Source: Actinomycetota bacterium
GTDB taxonomy: Bacteria; Actinomycetota; Thermoleophilia; Solirubrobacterales; Solirubrobacteraceae
Assembly: GCA_005884115.1 (NCBI GenBank)
Contig: VAXW01000005.1
Coordinates: forward strand, 1,116,001-1,180,000
Reading direction: 5' to 3'
Length of the DNA stretch: 64,000 nucleotides
Under the pieces are notes generated by a model. It ran no database searches. It was given only the letters and a program-made list of their open reading frames with translations, and was not told where the DNA came from. Shown here piece after piece: positions 2,797-15,609 of the stretch (position 1 is its first letter; each line of letters starts with the position of its first letter). The position numbers were made by a program, and so were the translations under genes.

Positions 2797-4041
2797 ATGC
2801 CCGACCGCAAGGTCGACTACCTGCTCATCGGGGGTGGTCTCGCCTCGGCGAACTGCGCGCGCTGGCTGCGCGGGTCCGGCGGCGACGGCACGGTGATGCT
2901 CGTGGGCCGTGAGCCTGACCCTCCCTACAACCGGCCGAACTGCTCCAAGGGATATCTGCGCGGCGAGGAGGCGCGCGAGGAGACCTTCTTCCGTCCTGAG
3001 GAGTGGTGGAGCGAGCAGGAAATCGAGCTGCTCACGCGCACCAGCGTGATGGCGCTGGATCCGCAAGCGCGCACCGCGAAGCTCTCGAACAAGCAGGAGG
3101 TGGCGTTCAGCAAGGCCCTGATCGCCACGGGCGCGAACGTCCGCCGGCTGAACGTAGACGGGTGCGAGCTCGAGCAGATCCACTACCTGCGCACGCTCGG
3201 CAACGCGGACGCGATCCGCGAGGGCGTCACCGAGGCCGAGAGCGTTGTGTTGATCGGAGGCTCCTACATCGGCTGCGAGGTCGCAGCGTCGCTGACCAAG
3301 ATCGGCAAGCGCTGCACGATGGTCATGCAGGAGCAGGCGACGCTCGAACGAGGGTTCGGTGCGCGCGTGGGCAGCTTCATCCAGCGGCTACTGGAATCGC
3401 ATGGAGTGACCGTGCATGGGGGGGACGAGCTCGAGCGCTTCGAGGGCGACGGGCGCGTTGCGAAGGTGGTTACCAGGGCCGGCCTGCAGCTCGACGCCGA
3501 AGCGGTCGTAGTCGGGGCCGGCGTCACGCCGGACGTGCAGCTCGCGCAGCGCGCGGGGCTCACGATCGGCGAGCGCGGCGGCGTGCGCTGTTCCTCGCGG
3601 CTCGAGAGCTCCATACCCGGGCTGTTCGCCGCGGGTGACATCTGCGAATACGACTCCGTCGTGCACGCAGGCGATCCCGTGCGCATCGAGCACTGGGACG
3701 TGGCGTTCAACCATGGCAAGACGGCCGCCCTGAACATGCTGGGGCAGGATCTGGCGCACGAGGAGATCCCCTACTTCTTCTCGGTGCTCGCCGATTGGGG
3801 AGAGCTCGAGTACGTCGGACCCGCGTACGAGTGGGATGAGGAAGTCATGCGCGGATCGCTCGAGGAGGCGAGCTTCACCAACTGGTACCTGAAGGACGGC
3901 GTCGTGAAGGCGGCGCTTACGTTCGGGCGCTCCGACGACCTCGACCACGCGCGGCGCCTGATGAGGGACGGGCGCCAGCTCGATGAGCGCGGGCGGGCGG
4001 CGCTGCACGACGAGAGCGTGGACCTCGCCACGCTGTCATAG
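2797..4041 (+). CDS. FAD-dependent NAD(P)H oxidoreductase (ferredoxin reductase/AIF-like)
   Basis: This 414-residue protein has the two-dinucleotide-fold layout of the pyridine nucleotide-disulfide oxidoreductase superfamily. The first Rossmann motif LLIGGGLASANCA (about residues 9-21) binds FAD. The second, VVLIGGSYIGCEVA (about 150-163), binds NAD(P)H. The second FAD contact GLFAAGDICEYDS lies near residue 275. There is no CxxxxC redox disulfide, so it is more like ferredoxin/rubredoxin reductases or apoptosis-inducing-factor-type enzymes than thioredoxin or lipoamide reductases. The roughly 110-residue C-terminal region matches the reductase C-terminal domain of that group. The electron acceptor cannot be told, and no ferredoxin gene is adjacent. 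It is monocistronic with a probable leaderless start. Confidence 0.8.
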   Translation: MPDRKVDYLLIGGGLASANCARWLRGSGGDGTVMLVGREPDPPYNRPNCSKGYLRGEEAREETFFRPEEWWSEQEIELLTRTSVMALDPQARTAKLSNKQEVAFSKALIATGANVRRLNVDGCELEQIHYLRTLGNADAIREGVTEAESVVLIGGSYIGCEVAASLTKIGKRCTMVMQEQATLERGFGARVGSFIQRLLESHGVTVHGGDELERFEGDGRVAKVVTRAGLQLDAEAVVVGAGVTPDVQLAQRAGLTIGERGGVRCSSRLESSIPGLFAAGDICEYDSVVHAGDPVRIEHWDVAFNHGKTAALNMLGQDLAHEEIPYFFSVLADWGELEYVGPAYEWDEEVMRGSLEEASFTNWYLKDGVVKAALTFGRSDDLDHARRLMRDGRQLDERGRAALHDESVDLATLS

Positions 4042-4108: not shown

Positions 4109-4114
4109 TAGGAT
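4109..4114 (+). promoter_or_regulatory. TANNNT -10 box upstream of cobalamin riboswitch
   Basis: TAGGAT lies so that a transcript would start near 4121, just at the 5' edge of the riboswitch. No recognisable -35 element was found. Confidence 0.4.
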
Positions 4115-4119
4115 CCGAA

Positions 4120-4313
4120 CGTCTAGACGGTCCGTGGTCAAGGGAAGCCGGTGCAAGTCCGGCGCGGACCCGCCACTGTGACCGGGGATGCCAGCCGCGG
4201 TGCGCGATCGTGCGCACAGCCACCAGTTCGCCGCCGGCGAACGGGGAAGGCGCGGAAAGGTAGGCCCGGGAGCCAGGAGACCTGCCACGGCCGAAGCCCA
4301 CAAGCCCTCGTGG
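4120..4313 (+). promoter_or_regulatory. Cobalamin (adenosylcobalamin-type) riboswitch
   Basis: The conserved core is plain: AGGGAAGCCGGTGCAAGTCC at 4141-4160, CCGCCACTGTGACCGGGG from about 4170, and the B12 box AGCCAGGAGACCTGCC at 4271-4286. The element reads on the plus strand and precedes the vitamin transporter operon. Right after the B12 box, CCACG (4286-4290) can pair with CGTGG (4309-4313), which touches the purine-rich Shine-Dalgarno GGAAAGGGG (4312-4320) of the first gene. Such a hairpin could control ribosome access, so translational rather than transcriptional control is likely. No U-tract terminator follows. Expected effect: high cobalamin represses the operon. Confidence 0.95.
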
Positions 4314-4327
4314 AAAGGGGTCGGCTC

Positions 4328-5632
4328 ATGCTCTCATGTCATCGGGTCCTCGCCGGGGACGACGTTGTGCACGCTCGAGGACGCCGCGGTCGAACGCGCA
4401 TGGTCGCCGCGAGCAGGTGGTTCCTGGCTGCGCTCGCAGCCTTATGCGCGCTCACTTCGGTCGCCATCCCAGACGCTGCGCTTGCGACGCCGATCACCGT
4501 GAATCTGCGTGTCGAGGGTTCGACGCGGACGCTCTTCGAAGGCAACGTGACCACGTCCCCCGAGACGATCCAAACCGCCTCGAGCGGTGGCGCACACCCC
4601 TGCAACTACGCCGAAAACGGGCCCTCGGGCGGCTTTGTGCCCGGCGGCAGCCAGTCTGGCACCCCGACGACGGCGCTTCACGATGCCGCGCTGGCGACCG
4701 GACTCTCATTCGACGCGGAATGGTTCGGCAGCGGCGCGGAAAACGGCAACCCCGGCGACTTCTTTGTCAGCCGGGTTGGCAACGACGTCAATCAGACAGA
4801 AGCGCCCTTCGATTCCTGGGGTTACGCGGTCAACTTCACGACCGCCTCCGTGGGCGGGTGCCAGATCGCGCTTGCGCCCGGGAACGAAGTCCTGTGGGCC
4901 TACAACTACTTCAACCTCTCACACCTGCTCAGCGCCGCGGGGCCGGTCAGCGTGAATGCGGGCACGCCTTTCACCGTGCACGTAGCCGACGGCCACACCG
5001 GCGAAGCGATCGCGGGCGCAGCGGTCGAAGAAGCGGTGAGCGGAGTGCCGTCGCCGATCGCGGGCAGCTCTCACAGCGACGCCAATGGGGACTCCACGGT
5101 CGTCCTGAACCAGCCCGGGGTCGTCACCCTGAAGGCCACCCGGGCTGACTCCGTGCGCTCCAACGGGCTCGTCGTCTGCGTGCACGCCGGCAGCGACGGG
5201 ACGTGCGGCTCGACCCTTCCCGCCCCCGCCGCCTCAGGCGGCCCCATCGCCGGCGGCCCGGTCTCGGACGTGGCGCGGATCGCAGGCATCCGCAGCGGAC
5301 GCGTGTACTCGCGGCGCTTCGCTCCGCGGGTGCTGAGCGGCAAGGTTCAAGTCCCGCCGGGAGGCACCCTGCGCGACGTCCGCATCCGCCTGGAACGTCG
5401 CCATGCTGGGCGCTGCTTCTTCTTCAGCGGCTCGAGGGTGCGGTTCGTTCGCACGCGGCGGTGCCGGCCGGCCCCGTTCTTCTCGGTCGGGGGATCACAG
5501 TCATTCAGCTACCTGCTCCCGGCGCGACTGCCCCGCGGGCGCTACGTCTACGACATCGAGGCCATCAGCGCCGACGGCACCGCGACGAAGCTCGTGGACG
5601 GAGTAAGCCATGTGGTGTTCCGCGTGCGGTGA
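4328..5632 (+). CDS. Secreted DUF4430/Ig-like protein of the cobalamin uptake operon
   Basis: First gene behind the riboswitch, 434 residues from ATG 4328. That start is chosen because GGAAAGGGG lies 7 nt upstream. An in-frame ATG at 4400 would give a neater signal peptide and is possible. A signal peptide (hydrophobic core about residues 31-52, ALA-T cleavage) sends it out of the cell. Residues 56-196 look like a DUF4430 beta domain, related to the C-terminal domain of animal transcobalamin, with FFVSRVGND, SWGYAVNF and ALAPGNEVLWAYNYFN in the usual order. An Ig-like or carboxypeptidase-regulatory-like domain (about 200-295) and a beta-rich C-terminal domain follow. No membrane anchor is visible. 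Inferred role: cobalamin or corrinoid binding outside the membrane, handing on to the ECF transporter. Binding is not shown by sequence alone. Confidence 0.75.
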   Translation: MLSCHRVLAGDDVVHARGRRGRTRMVAASRWFLAALAALCALTSVAIPDAALATPITVNLRVEGSTRTLFEGNVTTSPETIQTASSGGAHPCNYAENGPSGGFVPGGSQSGTPTTALHDAALATGLSFDAEWFGSGAENGNPGDFFVSRVGNDVNQTEAPFDSWGYAVNFTTASVGGCQIALAPGNEVLWAYNYFNLSHLLSAAGPVSVNAGTPFTVHVADGHTGEAIAGAAVEEAVSGVPSPIAGSSHSDANGDSTVVLNQPGVVTLKATRADSVRSNGLVVCVHAGSDGTCGSTLPAPAASGGPIAGGPVSDVARIAGIRSGRVYSRRFAPRVLSGKVQVPPGGTLRDVRIRLERRHAGRCFFFSGSRVRFVRTRRCRPAPFFSVGGSQSFSYLLPARLPRGRYVYDIEAISADGTATKLVDGVSHVVFRVR

Positions 5633-6602
5633 TCGTCGGCGGGGCAGGCGCTGCGAGTGGCGAGGCGTTTGCTCCCTCGCGGCAGCGGCTGGCGGCGTGC
5701 TCATGACGAGCCTCACCCTCACCGGGTGCGGTCTCGGCGCCGGCCGTGCGCCGAGCGCGGTGCAGCTGACGGTCACGCGCGAATTCGGCGCGCGCCCACT
5801 GCACGCTTGGCGCGCGCCGCGCGTGCACGGCAAGGAGACGGTCATGAGCCTGCTGATGCGAAACGCCAACGTCACGACCCGCTATGGCGGCGGCTTCGTG
5901 CAGAGCATCGACGGGCTCGCAGGGGGGAGCGAACGCGGGCGGCCCGTCGACTGGTTCTACTACGTGAACGGCGTCGAGGCTCACGAAGGCGCGGCCGAGA
6001 GGAACGTGCGCGCGGGCGATCGTATCTGGTGGGATCGCCACGACTGGAGCCAGACCGACGACGTACCTGCCGTGGTCGGCTCCTTTCCCGAGCCGTTCCT
6101 GCACGGACTCGAAGGCAAGCGCCTGCCCGTCCGGGTCGACTGCGCGAACGTGGGCTCTTCGGCGTGTACCACGGTCACCTCGAGGCTGCGGGCGGCTGGA
6201 GTCCCGGCGGCGGTCGCGGGCATCGGCGCGAGCGGGGGTCCGCAGACGCTGCGCGTGCTCGTCGGCCTGACCGCGGCGCTGCTCGCGGGGCAGGCGAGCG
6301 CGCGAGCGCTCGCCGGCGGCCCCCGCGCGAGCGGCGTCTACACGCGCTTCGCCGCCCGTGGCCGAGCTCTCGAACTGCTCGACCCGGACGGCCGCAGCGT
6401 TCGCACGCTGGGCGCGGGCTCGGGCTTGGTCGCCGCGACGCGCACCGGCTCGGGTGCCCCCGAGTGGGTCGTGACCGGAACGGACAGCGCGGGCGTCGCG
6501 CGTGCGGCCGCTGCGTTCGGCGCGCCGGCGCTTCGTGACCGCTTCGCGCTCGCAGTCACTGCCTCAGGCCAACCGCTCGCGCTGCCACAGGCCGGCGAAT
6601 GA
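5610..6602 (+). CDS. DUF4430 lipoprotein, candidate cobalamin-binding protein
   Basis: This 330-residue protein starts at ATG 5610, overlapping the previous gene by 23 nt. A positively charged N-terminus and a hydrophobic stretch lead to the lipobox LTGC with Cys40, so the mature protein should be lipid-anchored on the outer face of the membrane. Residues about 51-145 are a clear DUF4430 domain: GGGFVQSIDG, then DWFYYVNGVEAHEG, then RAGDRIWWDRHDW. This is the conserved pattern shared with the transcobalamin beta domain. A second domain of about 160 residues (170-330) is of unknown family. Its place between a riboswitch-controlled secreted paralogue and the ECF membrane component suggests a substrate-capture role. 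ATG 5703 inside the signal region is a less likely start, because it would remove the charged N-region. Confidence 0.8.
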   Translation: MWCSACGDRRRGRRCEWRGVCSLAAAAGGVLMTSLTLTGCGLGAGRAPSAVQLTVTREFGARPLHAWRAPRVHGKETVMSLLMRNANVTTRYGGGFVQSIDGLAGGSERGRPVDWFYYVNGVEAHEGAAERNVRAGDRIWWDRHDWSQTDDVPAVVGSFPEPFLHGLEGKRLPVRVDCANVGSSACTTVTSRLRAAGVPAAVAGIGASGGPQTLRVLVGLTAALLAGQASARALAGGPRASGVYTRFAARGRALELLDPDGRSVRTLGAGSGLVAATRTGSGAPEWVVTGTDSAGVARAAAAFGAPALRDRFALAVTASGQPLALPQAGE

Positions 6603-7492
6603 CCAGTTCGGGCCTCTTCATATACCGCCGCCTCGCGAGTCCACTGCACAGCGCGCGAGCCAGCGTCGGCGCGTGCTGGGTGCTTGCGCTGACCGCAGCA
6701 GCGGTGCTGCTCTATAACCCGCTCGCGCTGCTCGCACTGCTGGCGGCGGTCCTCGCGGCGGCCGTCGGCGCAGGCGTGGGGCGCGAGCTCGCCGGCGCTC
6801 TGCGCACTATCGCGTTTGTGGCACTGCCGATCGTGCTCGTCAACGTGCTCGTCTCACGCCAGGGGCTCACAGTCTTCGCCCGTCTCGGCGATCTGGGGCC
6901 ATTCGGACAGGGCGACCTGACGGTCGAGGCGCTCGCATACGGCGCAGACATCGCGCTCAAGGTCTCGGTCGTGATCCTGCTCGCGACCCTGGGCAGCTTG
7001 GCCGTCGACCCGGACGAGCTGCTCCGGGGATTCCGCCGGCTGTCGTTCCGCTCCGCGCTGACAGTGTCGTTGGCCCTCCGCATGATCCCGTTGCTCGCAG
7101 CGGACGCCAGGTGCCTGGGAGAGGCGCAGCGAACCAGGTTGCACCCACCCTCGCATAGAGCACGCGCGCGCGTCGCTCTGCTGGCGGCGATCGTGGCCAG
7201 CTCACTCGATCGTGCGATGGACGTGGCCGCAACGCTCGAGGTGCGCGGCTTCGCAAGCGGCAGCCGCGCCCCCAGGGTGAGACGGCCGCTCTCACGGCAC
7301 GACCTGGCGTTTACGAGCTCCGCCGCCGCCGTGCTAGTGCTCGCCATCGCCGGCCGCCTGTCGGGCGCGCTCTCCTTCGACGCCTATCCACTGCTGGCCA
7401 TGAGGGCGGGCACGGGCACGATCCTCCTTTGTGCTGCCCTCGCAGCAGCGGCGCTGCTCCCGTTCGGCAACCGAAGGGGTGTGGAGCAGTGA
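6599..7492 (+). CDS. ecfT: ECF transporter T component (CbiQ family)
   Basis: A polytopic membrane protein of 297 residues whose ATG overlaps the preceding stop (ATGA). It has several hydrophobic segments. In the C-terminal half it carries the coupling-helix signatures of CbiQ/EcfT proteins: LALRMIPLLAADARCLGEAQ and then AATLEVRGFASGSR, each with the Ala-Arg-Gly-like core that contacts the ATPases. In energy-coupling-factor transporters this subunit links the two ATPases to the substrate-binding S component. Neighbours on both sides (DUF4430 lipoprotein, ATPase, S component) and the riboswitch indicate a corrinoid transporter rather than a cobalt one. Confidence 0.88.
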   Translation: MTSSGLFIYRRLASPLHSARASVGACWVLALTAAAVLLYNPLALLALLAAVLAAAVGAGVGRELAGALRTIAFVALPIVLVNVLVSRQGLTVFARLGDLGPFGQGDLTVEALAYGADIALKVSVVILLATLGSLAVDPDELLRGFRRLSFRSALTVSLALRMIPLLAADARCLGEAQRTRLHPPSHRARARVALLAAIVASSLDRAMDVAATLEVRGFASGSRAPRVRRPLSRHDLAFTSSAAAVLVLAIAGRLSGALSFDAYPLLAMRAGTGTILLCAALAAAALLPFGNRRGVEQ

Positions 7493-9282
7493 GCGTGCCG
7501 CTGCTGCGTTTCAGCGGTGTCACGTACGAATACCCCGGCGTCGACGCGCCAGCGCTCAGCGGGGTCGACTTCGAGCTCCACCCCGGCGAGTTCTGCCTTC
7601 TCGCGGGCCTCTCGGGCCACGGCAAGTCGACGCTGCTGCGGGCGGCGTGCGGGCTCGTGCCGCACTTCTACGGCGGCCGCTTCGCCGGGCACGTCGTGCT
7701 CGCGGGCCTCGACTCGCGCGAGCATGGCCCCGCGAGGCTCGGCGCCGTCTCCGGCGCCCTGTTTCAGGATCCCGAGACGCAGCTCGTCACGAGCTCAGTG
7801 CGCGCGGAGCTCTCGCTGCCGCTTGAATGCCGCGGACATGGCGCGGCGGCGGTGGCTCGTGGGGTGGAGGAGGTGGCGCTCGCTCTCGGCATCGACGCCC
7901 TCCTCGACCGCTCCACTCACGATCTCTCGGGAGGCGAGAAGCAGCGCGTCGCCCTCGCGGCCGCCCTCGCAGGCAGGCCGGAGCTCGTGCTGCTCGACGA
8001 GCCCACCTCGCAGCTTGACCCGGTCGCCGGCGACGAGCTGATCGGTCTGCTGCGCCGGCTCAACCAGGAGTGGGAGACGACGGTCCTGCTGGCCGAGCAC
8101 CGCCTCGAGCGCTGCCTCGCGGCCGCAGATCGCGTGATCGCCCTGCAACACGGGAGCGTTGCCTGCGACGGCGATCCGCACACGTTCCTCACGTGGGCGT
8201 CGCGGCGCGTGCCCACCCTACAGACCCCAGGAGCGAAGCTGTTTGCGCTGGCCGGTCTGGCCGATCAGCCGGTGGGCGTGAGGCAGGCGCGCGCGCAGCT
8301 GCGCGCGCGCGGGCTGCTGGACGCGCGCACCCATCTCGGCCCGGACGCGCGCATCGGCGCTCAGGAGCAGAGAGGCCGCAGGTCCAGCCCGCTGCGCGCG
8401 ATCCGGCGCCGTCGCGGCAAGCCGGCTCCGGCGCTGGAAATGCGCGGCGTCTGGCACGAGCTGCGAAACGGGCCCTCGATCCTTCGCGGCGTAACGCTCA
8501 CCATCGAGCGTGGCGACACGGTTGCGCTGATGGGGCGCAACGGAGCCGGTAAGTCGACGCTGCTGCGCCACGCCGCCGGGCTGCTCGCGCCCACCCGGGG
8601 CCGCATCGAGCGGGCAGGGCGAGTCGCGCTGCTGCTGCAGAACCCGGGCGACTACTTCATCCACGAGCGCGTTTTGGACGAGGCCCCGCCGCGAGCGCTG
8701 CGCGAGGTGGGGCTCGCTGCGATGGCGGAGCGCAACCCGCGCGACCTCTCCGGAGGCGAGCGCCAGCGGCTGGCGCTCGCGATCGTCGGCGCGGGCCGGA
8801 TTGCGCCGGAGGCGGATCTCCTGGCGCCGCCGAGCGCCAGCCTGCGCGGCGCGGATCTGCCTCCGCGCGACGGTGGCGGCGCGGGAGATGCAGCGCTCGC
8901 GCCGCCCGCCGGCGAGCCGGCCGTGCTCGCCCTGGACGAGCCCACGCGCGGGATGGATCGCGCCGCCAAGGCGCAGCTGGCTGCGGAGCTTCGACGCCGG
9001 GCGGCCCGCGGGCTCGCCGTGATCGTGGCCACGCACGACCCCGAGTTCGCCGCCGCCTGCGCTGAGCGCGCCCTTCTGCTCGCTGACGGGTGCGTGATCG
9101 CAGACGGTCCCGCCGCCGAGCTGCTGGCAGGCGGTTGGTACTTTGCGACCGAGACGTCCCGCATCCTCGGCGGCGAGGCTGGCGCCGTGCTTCCCGAGCA
9201 GGGCGCCGAGCTGCTTCGCGCCCGGGCCGCCGCTCTTCCCGCGGAGGACTGCCAGGCGCTCGGCGCGGAGGTCGTGCAGTGA
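7489..9282 (+). CDS. ecfA: ECF transporter double ATP-binding protein (fused EcfA-EcfA')
   Basis: Two ABC ATPase domains lie in one 597-residue chain. GTG 7489 overlaps the preceding stop (GTGA) and follows AAGGGG. Domain 1 has Walker A GLSGHGKSTLL, Q-loop FQDPETQL, signature LSGGEKQRVAL, Walker B LVLLDEPTSQLD and switch His in LLAEHRLER. Domain 2 (from about residue 325) has GRNGAGKSTLL, signature LSGGERQRLAL near 421, LALDEPTRGMD near 481 and ATHDPEF. Both sites look intact. In domain 2 the stretch between signature and Walker B is about 40 residues longer than usual, with an Ala/Pro/Gly-rich insertion (about 435-477). The fused pair powers the CbiQ-type T component encoded immediately upstream. 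Confidence 0.92.
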   Translation: MSVPLLRFSGVTYEYPGVDAPALSGVDFELHPGEFCLLAGLSGHGKSTLLRAACGLVPHFYGGRFAGHVVLAGLDSREHGPARLGAVSGALFQDPETQLVTSSVRAELSLPLECRGHGAAAVARGVEEVALALGIDALLDRSTHDLSGGEKQRVALAAALAGRPELVLLDEPTSQLDPVAGDELIGLLRRLNQEWETTVLLAEHRLERCLAAADRVIALQHGSVACDGDPHTFLTWASRRVPTLQTPGAKLFALAGLADQPVGVRQARAQLRARGLLDARTHLGPDARIGAQEQRGRRSSPLRAIRRRRGKPAPALEMRGVWHELRNGPSILRGVTLTIERGDTVALMGRNGAGKSTLLRHAAGLLAPTRGRIERAGRVALLLQNPGDYFIHERVLDEAPPRALREVGLAAMAERNPRDLSGGERQRLALAIVGAGRIAPEADLLAPPSASLRGADLPPRDGGGAGDAALAPPAGEPAVLALDEPTRGMDRAAKAQLAAELRRRAARGLAVIVATHDPEFAAACAERALLLADGCVIADGPAAELLAGGWYFATETSRILGGEAGAVLPEQGAELLRARAAALPAEDCQALGAEVVQ

Positions 9283-10973
9283 GCTGGCCGCTGGCGTCCT
9301 TCCTGCTCGTGGGTCTCGCGCTCGCCGCGGGCTGGCTCTACTACGAGCGCGCGCGCCCATCGGCGCGGATGGTGGCGGTCGTGGCCACGCTCGCCGCGGT
9401 CGCCGCGCTCGGGCGCGACGCATTTGTCGCGCTGCCCGACGTCAAGCCGATCACCGCGATGACGCTCGTCGTCGGCTATGCGCTCGGTCCACTGCCCGGC
9501 TTCTCCGTCGGCGCGCTGGGAATGTTCGTTTCGAACATCCTCCTCGGCCAGGGTCCCTATACCCCGTGGCAGATGGCAGCCTGGGGGATGGTGGGCCTCG
9601 GCGGTGCCGCGCTCGGCCGGCTCAGCGGGCGCAGCCTCGGCCGGTTGGCGCTGGCGCTCTCGTGCGCTCTGGCCGCGGGCGCCGCAAAGGAGGTCATGAA
9701 CCTCTACACGTGGACGATCGGAGCCAGCCACACGCCCGCCGCCCTGCTCGCGACAGCGGGCGCCGCCGCTCCCTTCGACGTCACCGATGCGGTCGCGAGC
9801 TTTCTATTCGGGCTCGCATTCGGTCCCGAGCTCGGGCGGCTGCTGGGTCGCATGCGCTCGCGCATGGGGATCACGTGGGTGCAGGACGAGGACCCACCCG
9901 AGCGCCCGCGCAGCGGCGGATCGGGGCTGCAGCCGGTCGGCCCTGTCGGACGCCTCGCGGCCCGCGGAGGGCTCGGCACCCCCGGAGCGCTGAGCGTGGC
10001 GGGCGCGACCCTCGCTACGGCAGCGCTGGCGGGCCTCGCCGCGCTCGGGCCCGGTCAGTCGGCGCGGGCGCATCCCGTCCCCGCGGAGCGGCGCACAGCT
10101 GCGACGCCGACGGCCAAGGCCTCGGTCTCGCTCACCCGCCAGGTGTCCTACCTGGTCGGCGCTCAGAACTCCGACGGAGGGTTCGGCGCAGCGCGCGGGC
10201 AGCGCAGCAGCGAGCTGTTCACGGCGTGGAGCGCGATGGGCCTGGCAGCGGCGGGGCGCAGTCCCGCGAAGCTTCGTCGCGGCGGGCGTTCGGTGCTCGA
10301 TTCGCTGCGGCGCGAAGCGTCGACCCTGGCGGGCCTCGGCGACGACGAGCGCACGATCCTCGCGGCGCGTGCGTGCGGAGCCTCTCCATACTCCTTCGCC
10401 GGAACCAACCTCGTGGCGAGCGTGCTGCGAGCGCAACGCCGGGACGGCTCGTTCAACAGCCAGGTCAACCTCACTGCGTTCGCGATCTTCGCGCTGCGCG
10501 CCGTCGGCCACTCGCCGGCGTTCTCGCCCATCCGCCGCGCGGCCGGCTGGATCGAGCGCCAGCAGAACGTCGATGGCGGCTACTCGTTCAGCGTGCGCGG
10601 CACGCCGAGCGACGTCGATGACACCGGCGCTGCGCTGCAGGCGCTGGTCGGTGCGCGCGCTCGCAACGCGCATGCGCTCGCCGCCGCCGTCGGCTTCCTG
10701 TTGCGCTCGCAGAGACCCGACGGGGGATACCCGCAACGCGCCGGCTCCGAATCGAACGCCCAATCGACGGCGTGGGCGGTGCAGGGGCTTCTGGCCGCTG
10801 GCCGCGACCCCGCAGGCGTGCGCCGCCACGGTAGCCGCTCCCCGCTCGCCTACCTGCTGAGCCTGACCGCGCCCGACGGCTCGATCCGCTACTCGCGCAC
10901 CAGCGCGCAGACGCCGGTGTGGGTGACGGCGCAGGCGTTGATCGCGCTTGCCCGGCGGACGTTTCCGGTGTGA
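9279..10973 (+). CDS. ECF S component fused to extracellular prenyltransferase/squalene-cyclase-like repeat domain
   Basis: GTG 9279 overlaps the ATPase stop (GTGA). The 564-residue product has three parts. Residues 1-195 form an S-component-like membrane domain of about six hydrophobic helices (for example VKPITAMTLVVGYALGPLPG and the FDVTDAVASF segment). A hydrophobic segment at about 238-258 ending in SARA would carry the chain across the membrane again. Residues 285-560 hold at least five alpha-hairpin repeats with the hallmark NSDGGFG (297), RRDGSFN (388), NVDGGYSF (430), RPDGGYP (479) and PDGSIRYS (532). These repeats belong to the terpenoid-cyclase/prenyltransferase toroid fold, the same fold as the N-terminal domain of intrinsic factor and transcobalamin. 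Next to two DUF4430 proteins this is best read as a built-in corrinoid-capturing domain. Catalysis is unlikely, as no cyclase DxDD or prenyltransferase zinc ligands were noticed. Confidence 0.85.
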   Translation: MSWPLASFLLVGLALAAGWLYYERARPSARMVAVVATLAAVAALGRDAFVALPDVKPITAMTLVVGYALGPLPGFSVGALGMFVSNILLGQGPYTPWQMAAWGMVGLGGAALGRLSGRSLGRLALALSCALAAGAAKEVMNLYTWTIGASHTPAALLATAGAAAPFDVTDAVASFLFGLAFGPELGRLLGRMRSRMGITWVQDEDPPERPRSGGSGLQPVGPVGRLAARGGLGTPGALSVAGATLATAALAGLAALGPGQSARAHPVPAERRTAATPTAKASVSLTRQVSYLVGAQNSDGGFGAARGQRSSELFTAWSAMGLAAAGRSPAKLRRGGRSVLDSLRREASTLAGLGDDERTILAARACGASPYSFAGTNLVASVLRAQRRDGSFNSQVNLTAFAIFALRAVGHSPAFSPIRRAAGWIERQQNVDGGYSFSVRGTPSDVDDTGAALQALVGARARNAHALAAAVGFLLRSQRPDGGYPQRAGSESNAQSTAWAVQGLLAAGRDPAGVRRHGSRSPLAYLLSLTAPDGSIRYSRTSAQTPVWVTAQALIALARRTFPV

Positions 10974-11822: not shown

Positions 11823-11893
11823 GCCTCAGGCGCTGCCAGAGCCTGGGCGCTTCCAGAGCCTCGGGCGCTTTCCGACCCTCAGGCGCTTTCGGA
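11823..11893. repeat. Four degenerate 17-18 bp tandem repeats
   Basis: Units at 11823-11840, 11841-11857, 11858-11875 and 11876-11893 share the consensus GCCTCxGGCGCTTTCCGA. They fill the gap between two convergent genes. The last unit contains the final codons and stop of the minus-strand adenosyltransferase. On that strand the repeats read SESA, stop, GSESA, RGSGSA, so the stop lies inside a Ser/Ala repeat tail. Confidence 0.6.
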
Positions 11894-12529
11894 CCGCGGC
11901 TCGGTGGGGGGCGGATCGGGACCCGAGTCGTGTGCGCCCGGCTTCCACAGCGGCTCGGCGCCCTGGTCTTCGCGGTCTTGAACGTTGACGGCGCGGCTGA
12001 GGATGAACAGCAGGTCAGACAGCCTGTTCAGATAGCGCACCACCTCCGGGCTGCACGCTTCCACGGCGATGGCGCGGCGCTCGGCCCTGCGGCAGACGGT
12101 GCGTGCGAGGTGCAGGTGCGCTCCCGCGGGGGTGCCACCGGGGATCACGAACGAGCGCAGCGGCTCGAGCTTGGCGTTGACCTCATCGCAGGCATGCTCG
12201 AGCCACTCGGTGTAGGCCGGCAGCACGCGCAGCCGCTCGCGTGCGGCGCCCGAGGAGTCCTCCGCCTCCGAGCTCCCCGCGGGTGGCTGAGGCACGGACA
12301 GATCCGCGCCCACGTCGAGCAGATCGTTCTGCACCCGCCGCAGCCACTGCGCGAACTGCTCTGGCAGGCCAGGCTGCAACAGGACGATGCCGATCGCCGC
12401 GTTGAGCTCATCGACGGTCCCGTACGCCTCCACGCGTGGGTGCAGCTTCGAGACCCGGCTCATGTCGCCCAGGTGGGTCTCACCGCCGTCACCGAGCTTG
12501 GTGTAGATGCGCGTGAGGTTGACCGTCAT
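11879..12529 (-). CDS. Cob(I)alamin adenosyltransferase, PduO type
   Basis: A 216-residue enzyme that transfers the adenosyl group of ATP to cob(I)alamin to give adenosylcobalamin. The N-terminal ATP-binding motif IYTKLGDGGETHLGD follows the start, then RVEAYGTVDELNAAIG, and the second conserved block RTVCRRAERRAIAVE with NRLSDLLFILSR near the C-terminus. This is the PduO/MMAB family, not CobA/BtuR. The length is normal for the family, with a short acidic insertion (around residue 90) and a low-complexity tail. It converges on the PAP2 gene, and its location 1 kb from the riboswitch-controlled transporter gives a capture-import-adenosylation neighbourhood. No riboswitch precedes this gene. 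Confidence 0.92.
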   Translation of the reverse strand: MTVNLTRIYTKLGDGGETHLGDMSRVSKLHPRVEAYGTVDELNAAIGIVLLQPGLPEQFAQWLRRVQNDLLDVGADLSVPQPPAGSSEAEDSSGAARERLRVLPAYTEWLEHACDEVNAKLEPLRSFVIPGGTPAGAHLHLARTVCRRAERRAIAVEACSPEVVRYLNRLSDLLFILSRAVNVQDREDQGAEPLWKPGAHDSGPDPPPTEPRSESA

Positions 12530-12557
12530 GGCTCGCCGCCCGAAGGGCGCTGTGATG

Positions 12558-12563
12558 ATGATA
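12558..12563 (-). promoter_or_regulatory. TANNNT -10 box for adenosyltransferase gene
   Basis: TATCAT on the minus strand, about 28 nt before the start codon at 12529. It would give a short leader of about 20 nt. Confidence 0.35.
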
Positions 12564-12681
12564 GGCGCGCCGTCCGGACCAGCGCGCGGCCGGCGAGATC
12601 GCGCACGCCGCCCCCGGCCGGCTCGTGCTTCGCTGCGTCGCGCGCGAGCACGCCGCGCTGCCGCCGCCGTCCGCGATGGGA

Positions 12682-12687
12682 TACGTT
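12682..12687 (+). promoter_or_regulatory. TANNNT -10 box for pnt operon
   Basis: TACGTT lies 11 nt before ATG 12699. A transcript from here would have at most a few leader nucleotides, and no SD is visible. Confidence 0.35.
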
Positions 12688-12698
12688 GCCGCCCGCAA

Positions 12699-13829
12699 AT
12701 GCAGATCGGCGTTCCGAAGGAGACCGCGGCCGGCGAGCATCGTGTGGCGCTCGTGCCCGAGGTGGTCGGCAAGCTGAAGGGCAAAGGGACCGAGATCGTC
12801 GTGCAGAGCGGCGCCGGCTCGGAGGCGCTGCTGCCCGATGACGCTTACGTGCAGGCGGGCGCGCGCACGACGGACGACGCGGCTGAGGTGTGGCGCAGCG
12901 ACGTGGTCCTGAAGATCTCGCCGCCCGATGAGGGCGAAGTGCGCGCTCTCGGCGCGGGCTCGATCCTGATCGGCTTCCTCGCACCGCTCAGCAGTCCCTC
13001 GACCACGCGCGCCCTCGCCGACGCCGGGGCCACGGCGTTCGCGATGGAGGCGATCCCGCGCATCTCGCGCGCGCAGTCGATGGACGCGCTGTCCTCGCAG
13101 AGCAACGTCGCCGGCTACCGCGCCGCGCTCCTGGGCGCGGAGGAGATGGGGAGGTTCTACCCGATGCTGATGACCGCCGCGGGGACAATCCCGCCGGCCA
13201 AGGTCCTGGTGCTAGGCGTCGGCGTGGCGGGCTTGCAGGCGCTCGCCACCGCCAAGCGGCTGGGCGCGCGCACGACCGGCTATGACGTGCGGCCCGAGGT
13301 CGCCGAGCAGGTGCACTCGCTCGGCGCACAGTGGCTCGATCTCGGCGTGGAGGCGAGCGGCGAGGGCGGCTACGCGCGCGAGCTGAGCGCGGAGGAGCGC
13401 GAGCGCCAGCAGCAGGCGCTGACGGATGCGATAAAGGGCTTCGACGTGGTGATCACGACGGCGCTCGTTCCCGGCCGCCCGGCGCCGCGCCTGGTCACGG
13501 CCGAGGCCGTGCAGGGCATGAAGCCGGGCTCCGTGATCGTCGACCTCGCGGGCGAGGCTGGCGGCAACTGTGAGCTGACCGAGCCCGGCCAAACGGTGGT
13601 GCGCGAAGACGTGAAGATCGTCGCGCCGCTGAATCTGCCTGCGAGCATGGCCGAGCACTCCTCGCAGCTGTTCGCGCGAAACGTCCTGGCGCTGATGGAG
13701 CTGCTGATCGGCGAGGATGGCGCGCTGCATCTTGACTTCGAGGATGAGATCGTCAGCGGCGCGTGCATCGTGCGCGCGGGCGAGATCGTGCACGCCGGAG
13801 CGAAGTCCACGCTACAGGACGCCGCGTGA
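12699..13829 (+). CDS. pntAA: NAD(P) transhydrogenase subunit alpha part 1
   Basis: NAD(H)-binding domain I of the proton-translocating transhydrogenase, 376 residues, starting MQIGVPKETAAGEHRVAL, the standard N-terminus of the alanine dehydrogenase/PntA family. RAQSMDALSSQSNVAGYRA and the Rossmann glycine motif LVLGVGVAGLQALATAKRLG (about residues 170-190) are followed by the mobile-loop region and KIVAPLNLPASMAEHSSQLFA. The enzyme exchanges hydride between NADH and NADP+ using the proton gradient. As in many actinobacteria and Rhodospirillum, alpha is split, and the membrane part is the next gene. Confidence 0.95.
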   Translation: MQIGVPKETAAGEHRVALVPEVVGKLKGKGTEIVVQSGAGSEALLPDDAYVQAGARTTDDAAEVWRSDVVLKISPPDEGEVRALGAGSILIGFLAPLSSPSTTRALADAGATAFAMEAIPRISRAQSMDALSSQSNVAGYRAALLGAEEMGRFYPMLMTAAGTIPPAKVLVLGVGVAGLQALATAKRLGARTTGYDVRPEVAEQVHSLGAQWLDLGVEASGEGGYARELSAEERERQQQALTDAIKGFDVVITTALVPGRPAPRLVTAEAVQGMKPGSVIVDLAGEAGGNCELTEPGQTVVREDVKIVAPLNLPASMAEHSSQLFARNVLALMELLIGEDGALHLDFEDEIVSGACIVRAGEIVHAGAKSTLQDAA

Positions 13830-14194
13830 TCCTCGCCAGCACGCTCACGACAAACCTGGCGATCCTCGTGCTGGCCGGGTTCATCGGCTTCGTCGTCATC
13901 TCGAAGGTCCCCAACACCCTGCACACGCCGCTGATGTCGGGGACCAACGCGATTCACGGGATCGTGCTGCTCGGGGGCCTGTTGATCGTCGGGCTGTCGG
14001 GCAACGGCGCCTTCAACAAGGTGATCCTCGTGATCGCGATCGCTTTCGGCACGATCAACATCGTCGGCGGGTTCCTGGTCACCGACCGCATGCTCGAGAT
14101 GTTCAAGTCCAAGCCCAAACGCGAGAGCGCGGCGGCGAGCGAGGATGGCTCCGGGAACGATCCCCCCACCGGCGGAACGGCGGGCGGACAGTGA
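13826..14194 (+). CDS. pntAB: NAD(P) transhydrogenase subunit alpha part 2 (membrane)
   Basis: A 122-residue protein with three or four membrane helices, including NLAILVLAGFIGFVVISKVP and the NAIHGIVLLGGLLIVG segment typical of PntAB. GTG 13826 overlaps the pntAA stop (GTGA), and its own stop overlaps the pntB start in the same way. The C-terminal 25 residues are a Gly/Ser-rich tail. It contributes part of the proton channel of domain II. An upstream in-frame ATG at 13763 lies inside pntAA and is not needed. Confidence 0.93.
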   Translation: MILASTLTTNLAILVLAGFIGFVVISKVPNTLHTPLMSGTNAIHGIVLLGGLLIVGLSGNGAFNKVILVIAIAFGTINIVGGFLVTDRMLEMFKSKPKRESAAASEDGSGNDPPTGGTAGGQ

Positions 14195-15609
14195 CCCTCG
14201 CCACCTCCTTTCTGCAGGAACGGAGCTTCCTCGACGTCCTCTACATCATCGCCTTCGCGCTCTTCATCCAGGGCCTGCGCGGTCTGTCGGGCCCCACGAC
14301 GGCGGTGCGCGGCAACCGCATCGCCGCGGTCGGCATGGCGATCGCCTTCATCGCGACCCTGCTCAACCGCTCCGAGGGCAACTGGGGCCTGATCGCGGCG
14401 GGCATCGCGATCGGCACGGCGGTCGGCGTGCCCGCGGCCAGGCAGGTGAGGATGACCGCCATGCCGCAGATGGTGGCGCTCTTCAACGGCGTCGGCGGCG
14501 GCGCGTCGTTTTTGATCGCCTGGTCTGAGTTCAGGCTCACGGATGGCTACAGCAGCACCGCGACGTACATCGCGATCTTTTCGCTGTTCGCCGCGATCGT
14601 CGGCTCGGTGTCGTTCTGGGGATCGAACATCGCCTTCGGCAAGCTCCAGGAACTCATCCCCGGACGCCCGCTCACGCTGGGCCGGGCCCAGCAGTCGGTG
14701 AACTTCACGCTGCTCGGGCTCGCGCTCGCGGCCGGCGTGGCGATCGCCGCGGGCAGCCACTCGGAGGGGATCTTCATAGGCATGCTCGTGTGCGCGGCGC
14801 TGCTCGGCAATGCGGTGGTGCTGCCGATCGGAGGCGCCGACATGCCGGTCGTGATCTCGCTGCTGAACGCGTTCACGGGCCTCTCCGCGGCGGCCACCGG
14901 GATCGCGCTCAACAACACCGCGCTGATCGTCGCGGGCATGATCGTCGGCGCTTCCGGCTCGATCCTTACCAACCTGATGGCCAAGGCGATGAACCGCTCG
15001 ATCCCGGCGATCGTCGCCGGCGGCTTCGGCGGCGGCGGCGTCGTCGAGGGCGCGGCGGGCGCGGGCGAGCACGCCGGCACGGTGCGCTCGACGAGCGCCG
15101 CCGACGCCGCGATCCAGCTCGCCTACGCAAGCCGTGTGGTGGTCGTTCCGGGCTACGGCATGGCGGTCGCGCAGGCGCAGCACGCGGTGCGCGAGCTCAC
15201 CAAAGAGCTCGAGGGGCGCGGCGTCGAGATCAGCTACGCGATCCACCCGGTCGCAGGGCGCATGCCCGGGCACATGAACGTCCTGCTGGCCGAGGCCGAC
15301 GTGCCCTACGACCAGCTCAAGGAGATGGACGACGCCAACCCCGAGTTCCAGCGCACGGACGTCTCGCTGGTCATCGGCGCTAACGACGTCACCAACCCCG
15401 CGGCCAAGAACACGCCCACGTCGCCCATCTACGGCATGCCGATCCTCGAAGTCGCCGACAGCCGCTCGATCATCGTCATCAAGCGCTCGATGAACCCCGG
15501 CTTTGCGGGCATCGAGAACGAGCTCTACTACGACCCAAAGACCGCGATGCTGTTCGGGGATGCGAAGTCGGCGGTCAGCGACATCGCCGCCGAGCTGGCG
15601 CAGCTGTAG
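14191..15609 (+). CDS. pntB: NAD(P) transhydrogenase subunit beta
   Basis: The protein has 472 residues. The first 270 or so contain about nine membrane helices, and the last 180 are the NADP(H)-binding domain III: YASRVVVVPGYGMAVAQAQH, then YAIHPVAGRMPGHMNVLLAE, then VIGANDVTNPAA. All canonical motifs of PntB are present. Start GTG 14191 overlaps the pntAB stop. Together the three subunits supply NADPH. The antisense strand of this gene is open for more than 700 codons, which I treat as a high-GC shadow. Confidence 0.96.
   Translation: MTLATSFLQERSFLDVLYIIAFALFIQGLRGLSGPTTAVRGNRIAAVGMAIAFIATLLNRSEGNWGLIAAGIAIGTAVGVPAARQVRMTAMPQMVALFNGVGGGASFLIAWSEFRLTDGYSSTATYIAIFSLFAAIVGSVSFWGSNIAFGKLQELIPGRPLTLGRAQQSVNFTLLGLALAAGVAIAAGSHSEGIFIGMLVCAALLGNAVVLPIGGADMPVVISLLNAFTGLSAAATGIALNNTALIVAGMIVGASGSILTNLMAKAMNRSIPAIVAGGFGGGGVVEGAAGAGEHAGTVRSTSAADAAIQLAYASRVVVVPGYGMAVAQAQHAVRELTKELEGRGVEISYAIHPVAGRMPGHMNVLLAEADVPYDQLKEMDDANPEFQRTDVSLVIGANDVTNPAAKNTPTSPIYGMPILEVADSRSIIVIKRSMNPGFAGIENELYYDPKTAMLFGDAKSAVSDIAAELAQL

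Follow-up and report, generated by a model that had tools for sequence, protein, structure and literature searches.

The stretch analysed here, referred to as the window, is a 64-kb piece (64,000 nucleotides) of the genome of an Actinomycetota bacterium of the family Solirubrobacteraceae (assembly GCA_005884115.1, contig VAXW01000005.1), and all positions are those of this whole stretch. The operon under study, at 4109–10973, consists of a cobalamin riboswitch followed on the same strand by genes for a DUF4430-like protein, a second DUF4430 protein, the EcfT component of an energy-coupling factor (ECF) transporter, a fused double EcfA ATPase, and an S component extended by an alpha/alpha toroid. 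A first-pass annotation of the bare sequence had described this riboswitch and five-gene operon, and Rfam, Pfam and profile searches as well as related loci confirmed it. The features are as follows.

4118–4303, plus strand: cobalamin riboswitch RF00174 (cmscan 72.1 bits, E 8e-16, full model 1–189).
4400–5632, plus strand: secreted DUF4430-like protein 1, 410 residues (N-terminal hydrophobic signal; start codon picked by eye).
5610–6602, plus strand: DUF4430 lipoprotein 2 (start at 5610 ATG or 5667 GTG; Pfam DUF4430 47 bits).
6599–7492, plus strand: EcfT transmembrane component, CbrV-like (Pfam CbiQ 76.9 bits; hydrophobic segments).
7489–9282, plus strand: fused double EcfA ATPase, CbrU-like (ABC_tran 145.7 bits, two stretches).
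9279–10973, plus strand: S component and toroid in one gene (SQHop_cyclase_C 47.3 bits; ECF_trnsprt 19 bits, below cut-off).
9279–9893, plus strand: S-component domain of the CbrT family, residues 1–205 (profile A1 against PDB 6fnp_A, 2e-27).
9990–10046, plus strand: extra hydrophobic helix linking S domain and toroid, residues 238–256 (hydropathy).
10134–10949, plus strand: alpha/alpha toroid, residues 286–557 (AlphaFold model and fold matches; presumed extracellular).
11879–12784, minus strand: PduO-type cob(I)alamin adenosyltransferase (Pfam Cob_adeno_trans 196 bits; TIGR00636 165.7 bits).

The riboswitch was the sole match within the 64 kb at Rfam gathering thresholds, and with stricter filters no other RF00174 match was listed in the whole of the bacterium's own genome. 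Four-base overlaps join DUF4430 protein 2 to EcfT, EcfT to the fused ATPase, and the ATPase to the S component; the ATPase contains two Walker A, two LSGGE and two Walker B motifs. The first DUF4430-like protein, whose N terminus is its sole strongly hydrophobic stretch by hydropathy, reached 18.5 bits with the Pfam DUF4430 model, under the cut-off of 23.8, and returned zero matches as a phmmer query. Protein 1 was nevertheless matched at 1.7e-10 by an iterated profile that started from DUF4430 protein 2 and two relatives and had by then taken in relatives of protein 1; among the 588 frames of the window this profile gave no third match. In protein 2 a lipobox-like LTGC was spotted by eye. The S-toroid protein is a partial match to the SCO2321 family of NCBIfam (100.5 bits, cut-off 300), and our guess is that this family may be the toroid protein.

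The S component links the operon to cobalamin. When profile A1, whose first row is the window's own S domain, was compared with all PDB sequences, 6fnp_A was the one good match (2e-27). The next rows were an unrelated protein (0.77) and the chain of an S component (2.4), and up to E 10 the matches included no S component for riboflavin or cobalt. As a single sequence, the S domain of the window matched 6fnp_A at 0.0014. 6FNP is the ECF-CbrT entry, and from its length of 182 residues we take chain A to be CbrT. The transporter to which CbrT belongs as S component is proven to import cobalamin and cobinamide (PMC5997447), and reconstructions and a plasmid paper list CbrUVT as a B12 transporter (PMC6593275, PMC8123684, PMC6722938). 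The operon of the window combines a CbrT-related S component with EcfT, two ECF ATPases and a cobalamin link consisting of RF00174, the PduO-type neighbour and the 73/83 genomes described below. It is therefore likely a CbrT-type member of the ECF transporters, for which ATP-driven uptake of cobalamin is predicted.

The likeness to ECF-CbrT and CbrUVT extends to the CbrT-family S component, EcfT, two ATPases and a PduO gene nearby, as in the nrdJ-cbrS-cbrT-pduO cluster of Lactobacillus delbrueckii (PMC5997447). However, the window operon encodes its own energising module, whereas the CbrT of L. delbrueckii uses one in common with other S components (PMC5997447). It also has fused ATPases and a cobalamin riboswitch, its S component is extended by a hydrophobic helix and the toroid, and two extracellular DUF4430 proteins are added. 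With BtuF-BtuCD the system would have in common an extracytoplasmic capture followed by ATP-driven import, but ECF-CbrT is described as unrelated to BtuCDF in PMC5997447, and the own genome gave no FecCD/BtuC match. BtuG, BtuH and DUF4465 (BtuJ) of the Bacteroidetes would resemble the module in being B12-binding proteins outside the cell; they differ in serving BtuB-type uptake. DUF4465 is a beta-jellyroll (PMC13398666).

The arrangement is conserved. Among 101 genomes of the window's order, the S-toroid protein was matched in 78, and the S family was present in 108/296 genomes sampled across the phylum. In a scan of named genomes the S domain had at least 585 relatives, the best 80 of which were taken into the locus counts. 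Here, EcfT and the double ATPase stood upstream of the S gene in all 50 loci having at least 4.5 kb upstream, and a DUF4430 lipoprotein did so in 49 of these 50. A toroid started within 600 bases after the S domain in 67 of the 72 loci having at least 1.1 kb downstream.

Variants of this order were found as well (genomes are numbered G, loci L). In G041 and G058 the toroid is a gene of its own between two DUF4430 genes, and in L270–L272, from other classes, it occupies its own open frame immediately after the S gene. In G063, G066, G069 and G075, which belong to one family, the S component was found without an adjacent toroid; toroid-like stretches lie on separate contigs in G066, G072 and G075. 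At L278 and L280 toroid, ATPase and S component stand together with no DUF4430 detected; the S component of these two loci is more divergent and accompanied by a double ATPase and a toroid gene. The order in a Latilactobacillus locus is toroid, DUF4430, EcfT, ATPase, S. Plasmids searched with the S-toroid protein gave one match, and with DUF4430 protein 2 zero matches.

A genome survey of the co-occurrence of riboswitch and DUF4430, proposed beforehand, came out in favour of a link to B12. In the 101 genomes of the order, DUF4430 was detected at E 0.01 in 83 (82 above the Pfam cut-off) and the cobalamin riboswitch at E 0.001 in 89. RF00174 lay on the same strand within 4 kb upstream of DUF4430 in 73 of the 83 DUF4430-bearing genomes and, counted per match, for 132/146 DUF4430 matches; conversely, 77/146 riboswitches precede DUF4430. 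All four Firmicutes loci among the best 80 (L138, L142, L146, L149) had RF00174 before the operon on the same strand. Clostridial loci picked for good matches to a toroid-DUF4430 fusion, which is described below, had a B12 riboswitch upstream in seven of seven cases (six RF00174, one adenosylcobalamin (AdoCbl)-II). Twenty further clostridial loci were sampled from 25 genomes, taken from every second place of the list of fusion-query matches; three genomes already among the fusion-query loci, all riboswitch-bearing, as well as G242 and G249 were left out. RF00174 was present in 10 of these 20 loci (8 upstream on the same strand, 2 divergent). S loci hand-picked from other actinobacterial classes and families had a B12 riboswitch near in 5/11 cases. 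By these surveys, the link to B12 is strong in the window's order and frequent in Clostridia, but not universal for DUF4430.

The riboswitches of these loci varied. At L228, positions 6743–6815, an AdoCbl-II riboswitch (RF01689) rather than RF00174 precedes a gene combining toroid, DUF4430 and S-layer homology domains, so that counts of RF00174 understate the link to B12. In a metagenome-assembled genome named Dethiobacter alkaliphilus (L138), a tandem pair of cobalamin riboswitches (2005–2543) stands before the operon, the first gene of which encodes two toroids and a DUF4430-type stretch (by eye) in a single chain of 1178 residues. At L039 (plus strand, 11869–14184) and L041 (plus strand, 5587–7740), divergent pairs of cobalamin riboswitches stand before a second unit encoding a large protein with collagen-like repeats, in L041 with a toroid-like stretch. 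In one clostridial operon (L231, 2578–2636) a sodium riboswitch (RF03071) lies close downstream of the S gene.

The own genome, which is 87.8% complete, has a use for cobalamin: five B12-binding domain matches were found, and the four that were assigned are MetH, methylmalonyl-CoA mutase (two) and lysine 5,6-aminomutase. It gave no match to CbiC at E 0.001 and none to a FecCD/BtuC-type permease (PF01032) at E ≤ 0.001; BtuF itself was not searched. Comparing 61 genomes without correction for kinship, CbiC was present in 5/51 genomes with the S operon and in 6/10 without it (p 0.0013). Strong FecCD matches (1e-40, a threshold fixed after inspection of the table) were present in 8/51 and 6/10, respectively (p 0.0066). 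The tentative proposal that the module replaces BtuF-type binding proteins rests on the absence of BtuC from an 88%-complete genome and on this correlation with the S operon. Cobalamin as the ligand, as the first-pass annotation had it, is supported by the riboswitch upstream of DUF4430 in most genomes of the order, by the match of the S family to CbrT, by the B12-dependent enzymes, and by the lack of CbiC and BtuC-type permease matches in the own genome.

Animal B12 carriers (intrinsic factor, transcobalamin, haptocorrin) combine an alpha/alpha toroid with a DUF4430-type domain and hold cobalamin between the two. A broad DUF4430 profile, built from 33 bacterial domains of lipoproteins, fusions and secreted proteins with the window's as first row, had transcobalamin-1 (4kki, 7.7e-5) and transcobalamin-2 (5no0, 1.2e-4) as its best matches in the PDB. 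The predicted homology of DUF4430 to the C-terminal domain of transcobalamin was thereby borne out; a six-row DUF4430 profile matched no transcobalamin or intrinsic factor in the PDB up to E 10. Transcobalamins are also said to bear DUF4430 at the C terminus in PMC4350170. The third match of the 33-row profile (1.9e-4) was 3u7z, a solved structure of the DUF4430-like protein RUMGNA_00854, titled putative metal binding protein; our guess is that it may be a corrinoid binder.

Toroid and DUF4430 also occur naturally in one protein under B12 riboswitches. At L146, L149 and L228, toroid-type and DUF4430 matches are combined with S-layer domains in a single chain (the toroid-type Pfam match of L146 is under the cut-off). 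At L142 DUF4430 comes first, as a weak match, and the toroid was found in the same chain by tblastn. The window toroid matched that of L146 directly, with 35% over residues 95–294 of the query stretch. With the L146 fusion as query, matches, nearly all in the toroid part, were obtained in 51 of the 148 genomes sampled from the Anaerovirgula class. At least 47 of these 51 have DUF4430 on the same strand no more than 5 kb away, counting fused cases; DUF4430 was detected at E 0.001 in 74 of the 148. A phmmer search with one fusion as query reached a best E of 0.13. The divergent proteins of L039, L041 and L045 were rejected as toroid-DUF4430 fusions; they matched the DUF4430 profile at whole-protein E-values of 2.7, 0.58 and 0.1, respectively, and in the first two of them Pfam did not detect DUF4430 either. 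Alignment A4 with DUF4430-only rows was dropped, its rows being misaligned.

The L146 fusion of Anaerovirgula multivorans (402 residues) was modelled with AlphaFold from an alignment of 35 rows (A6), which includes the divergent L039, L041 and L045 rows; the mean predicted local distance difference test (pLDDT) was 90.6 and the predicted TM-score (pTM) 0.75. In Foldseek, ranks 1–14 were all transcobalamin, haptocorrin or intrinsic factor (8.8e-10 to 5.6e-7, about 430 columns), and terpene cyclases started at rank 15 (2.2e-5). With VIA-align, the best 50 matches of the model included no intrinsic factor or transcobalamin, the list being filled by toroid matches. The idea that both halves belong together is thus supported by the natural fusions and by the carrier-first Foldseek result of one fusion model. 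The window differs from the animal carriers in that its halves are distributed over three proteins, whereas the relatives at L146, L149 and L228 are single chains, and in that its module is tied to a membrane transporter, whereas the animal carrier is soluble.

In the S-toroid protein, the S domain ends at about residue 200 and is followed by the hydrophobic segment 238–256, with basic residues before it, and by the toroid from residue 286. The AlphaFold model places the extra helix at residues 241–255 with low confidence; in the toroid the block means were mostly 95–98 from residue 290. Both Foldseek and VIA-align matched the model of the window toroid to alpha/alpha toroids. The toroid would lie outside the cell, in agreement with what was seen in surface-type relatives: L039 has an N terminus resembling a signal and a hydrophobic stretch at its C-terminal end (by eye), L031 and L142 have an LPXTG anchor, and L146, L149, L228 and L138 have S-layer domains.

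In our interpretation, to which we assign a probability of about 0.7, the operon encodes an ECF-CbrT-type importer for corrinoids that is under riboswitch control and captures its substrate outside the cell by means of a module of two parts, akin to intrinsic factor and transcobalamin. At low AdoCbl the riboswitch would open and the operon be expressed. The DUF4430 proteins, one lipid-anchored and one secreted, would pick up cobalamin outside the membrane. Together with the toroid, tethered to the S component by the extra membrane helix, they might then close over it. The corrinoid would next reach the S component, and its import would be powered by EcfT and the double ATPase. Inside the cell, the PduO-type neighbour could adenosylate the corrinoid for methylmalonyl-CoA mutase and lysine 5,6-aminomutase, and MetH would use the methyl form.

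Several results weigh against this interpretation. Foldseek and VIA-align both placed squalene-hopene cyclases nearest to the window toroid, and intrinsic factor and transcobalamin were absent among its best 50 matches; as with the fusion model, toroid matches filled the VIA-align list. A toroid profile compared with the PDB also gave squalene cyclases first and no intrinsic factor or transcobalamin in the best 60; E-values of the iterated toroid profile are inflated, as matched rows were built into it. The model of the L146 fusion superposed on transcobalamin with a whole-chain root-mean-square deviation of about 22 Å and TM-scores of 0.38–0.47, which means that the placement of the domains is not reproduced. 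Ten of the 83 DUF4430-bearing genomes of the order had no B12 riboswitch nearby, although at least two of these (G004, G012) are at contig ends. In 10 of the 20 sampled clostridial loci RF00174 was missing from the stretch examined, in 6/11 other actinobacterial loci no B12 riboswitch was near, and a search of the Latilactobacillus locus for one found none. Among 14 control genomes, DUF4430 occurred in two (Lactococcus lactis, Methanosarcina acetivorans) and RF00174 in eight others. Lastly, 5/72 S loci as well as L274–L277 and L279 lacked the toroid, and DUF4430 was undetected at three S loci (L278–L280), so that neither half is obligatory. The first-pass annotation thus held for the cobalamin ligand, the DUF4430 homology and the pairing of the halves; its view of the window toroid as specifically intrinsic-factor-like was not supported by fold or by profile, where squalene cyclases came first.

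The same capture mechanism might serve mainly other corrinoids or precursors, such as cobinamide or cobyrinate-type compounds, with cobalamin as one ligand among them. We consider this rather unlikely, even though ECF-CbrT carries both cobinamide and cobalamin (PMC5997447) and a review pairs cbrUVT with "cobyrinate diamide uptake" (PMC8123684). Alternatively, the transporter could be a CbrT-type B12 importer whose toroid and DUF4430 proteins do not hold the corrinoid but have a structural or adhesive function at the surface, as wall or S-layer anchors or in glycan binding. In Firmicutes the toroid does occur on proteins with S-layer domains or an LPXTG anchor, its fold recurs in sugar epimerases and glycoside hydrolases (VIA-align of the L146 model), and some S loci have no toroid or DUF4430. 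However, DUF4430 is related in sequence to the C-terminal domain of cobalamin carriers, the first 14 Foldseek ranks of the fusion were all such carriers, and the toroid/DUF4430 pair is kept together, often beside B12 riboswitches, in two phyla. A purely structural or adhesive role is improbable.

It is very unlikely that the genes track another vitamin or metal, such as riboflavin or cobalt, with the riboswitch link being specific to some lineages. The riboflavin S family is among the weak Pfam matches of the S component, EcfT is a CbiQ-family protein, and RF00174 was missing from half of the clostridial toroid loci sampled and from both DUF4430-bearing controls. Against this, the S profile matched CbrT and, up to E 10, none of the riboflavin or cobalt S components, and B12 riboswitches, AdoCbl-II included, precede such loci both in Clostridia and in actinobacteria of other classes. 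The least probable explanation, with hardly any chance of being correct, is that the toroid is a class II terpene cyclase-like enzyme acting on membrane lipid and stands in the operon incidentally. Squalene-hopene cyclases are its best fold and profile matches, and it has DVDDT at the position of the cyclase motif DxDD. Yet the catalytic motif is not conserved across the toroid family, as only 3/34 aligned toroids, the window's included, have it in full. Unlike the cyclases, the window toroid is tied to DUF4430 and an ECF transporter, its relatives are surface proteins fused to DUF4430, and a toroid follows the S domain in most loci. Its presumed extracellular position and its DUF4430 partner make a role as an enzyme unlikely.

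If the capture reading is correct, the kinship of the animal B12 carriers with bacterial proteins would extend from sequence to function. Tentatively, and with less confidence than for the operon itself, we suggest that a surface module of toroid and DUF4430, fused or split, is widespread in Actinomycetota and Clostridia and captures corrinoids for CbrT-type ECF transporters, that the gene of the animal carriers may descend from such a bacterial fusion or have been acquired from one, and that in the window the module is split, its toroid having become part of the transporter. The module bears on two questions, how Gram-positive-type cells capture B12 outside the membrane and where the animal carriers originate, and single-chain fusions in named strains (Anaerovirgula multivorans, Thermosediminibacter litoriperuensis) make both testable. 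In addition, it points to a function for DUF4430, as well as for surface proteins whose only matches so far are squalene cyclase-type models. The ECF core is of a known kind; what looks new is the toroid as a partner, its fusion into a form like intrinsic factor, and its incorporation into the S component. A full-text literature search, which mostly did not cover subscription papers, found no paper on a bacterial toroid-DUF4430 module as a B12 binder. The annotation role "additional lipoprotein component of predicted cobalamin ECF transporter" may correspond to the DUF4430 lipoprotein.

The surroundings of the operon contain further genes. The PduO-type gene lies just downstream on the opposite strand, and its true start is probably within the open reading frame. 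Upstream, at 2797–4041, a ferredoxin-reductase-type flavoprotein is encoded, and transhydrogenase genes (AlaDh/PNT, PNTB_4TM, PNTB) were found downstream of the operon within 12507–15606.

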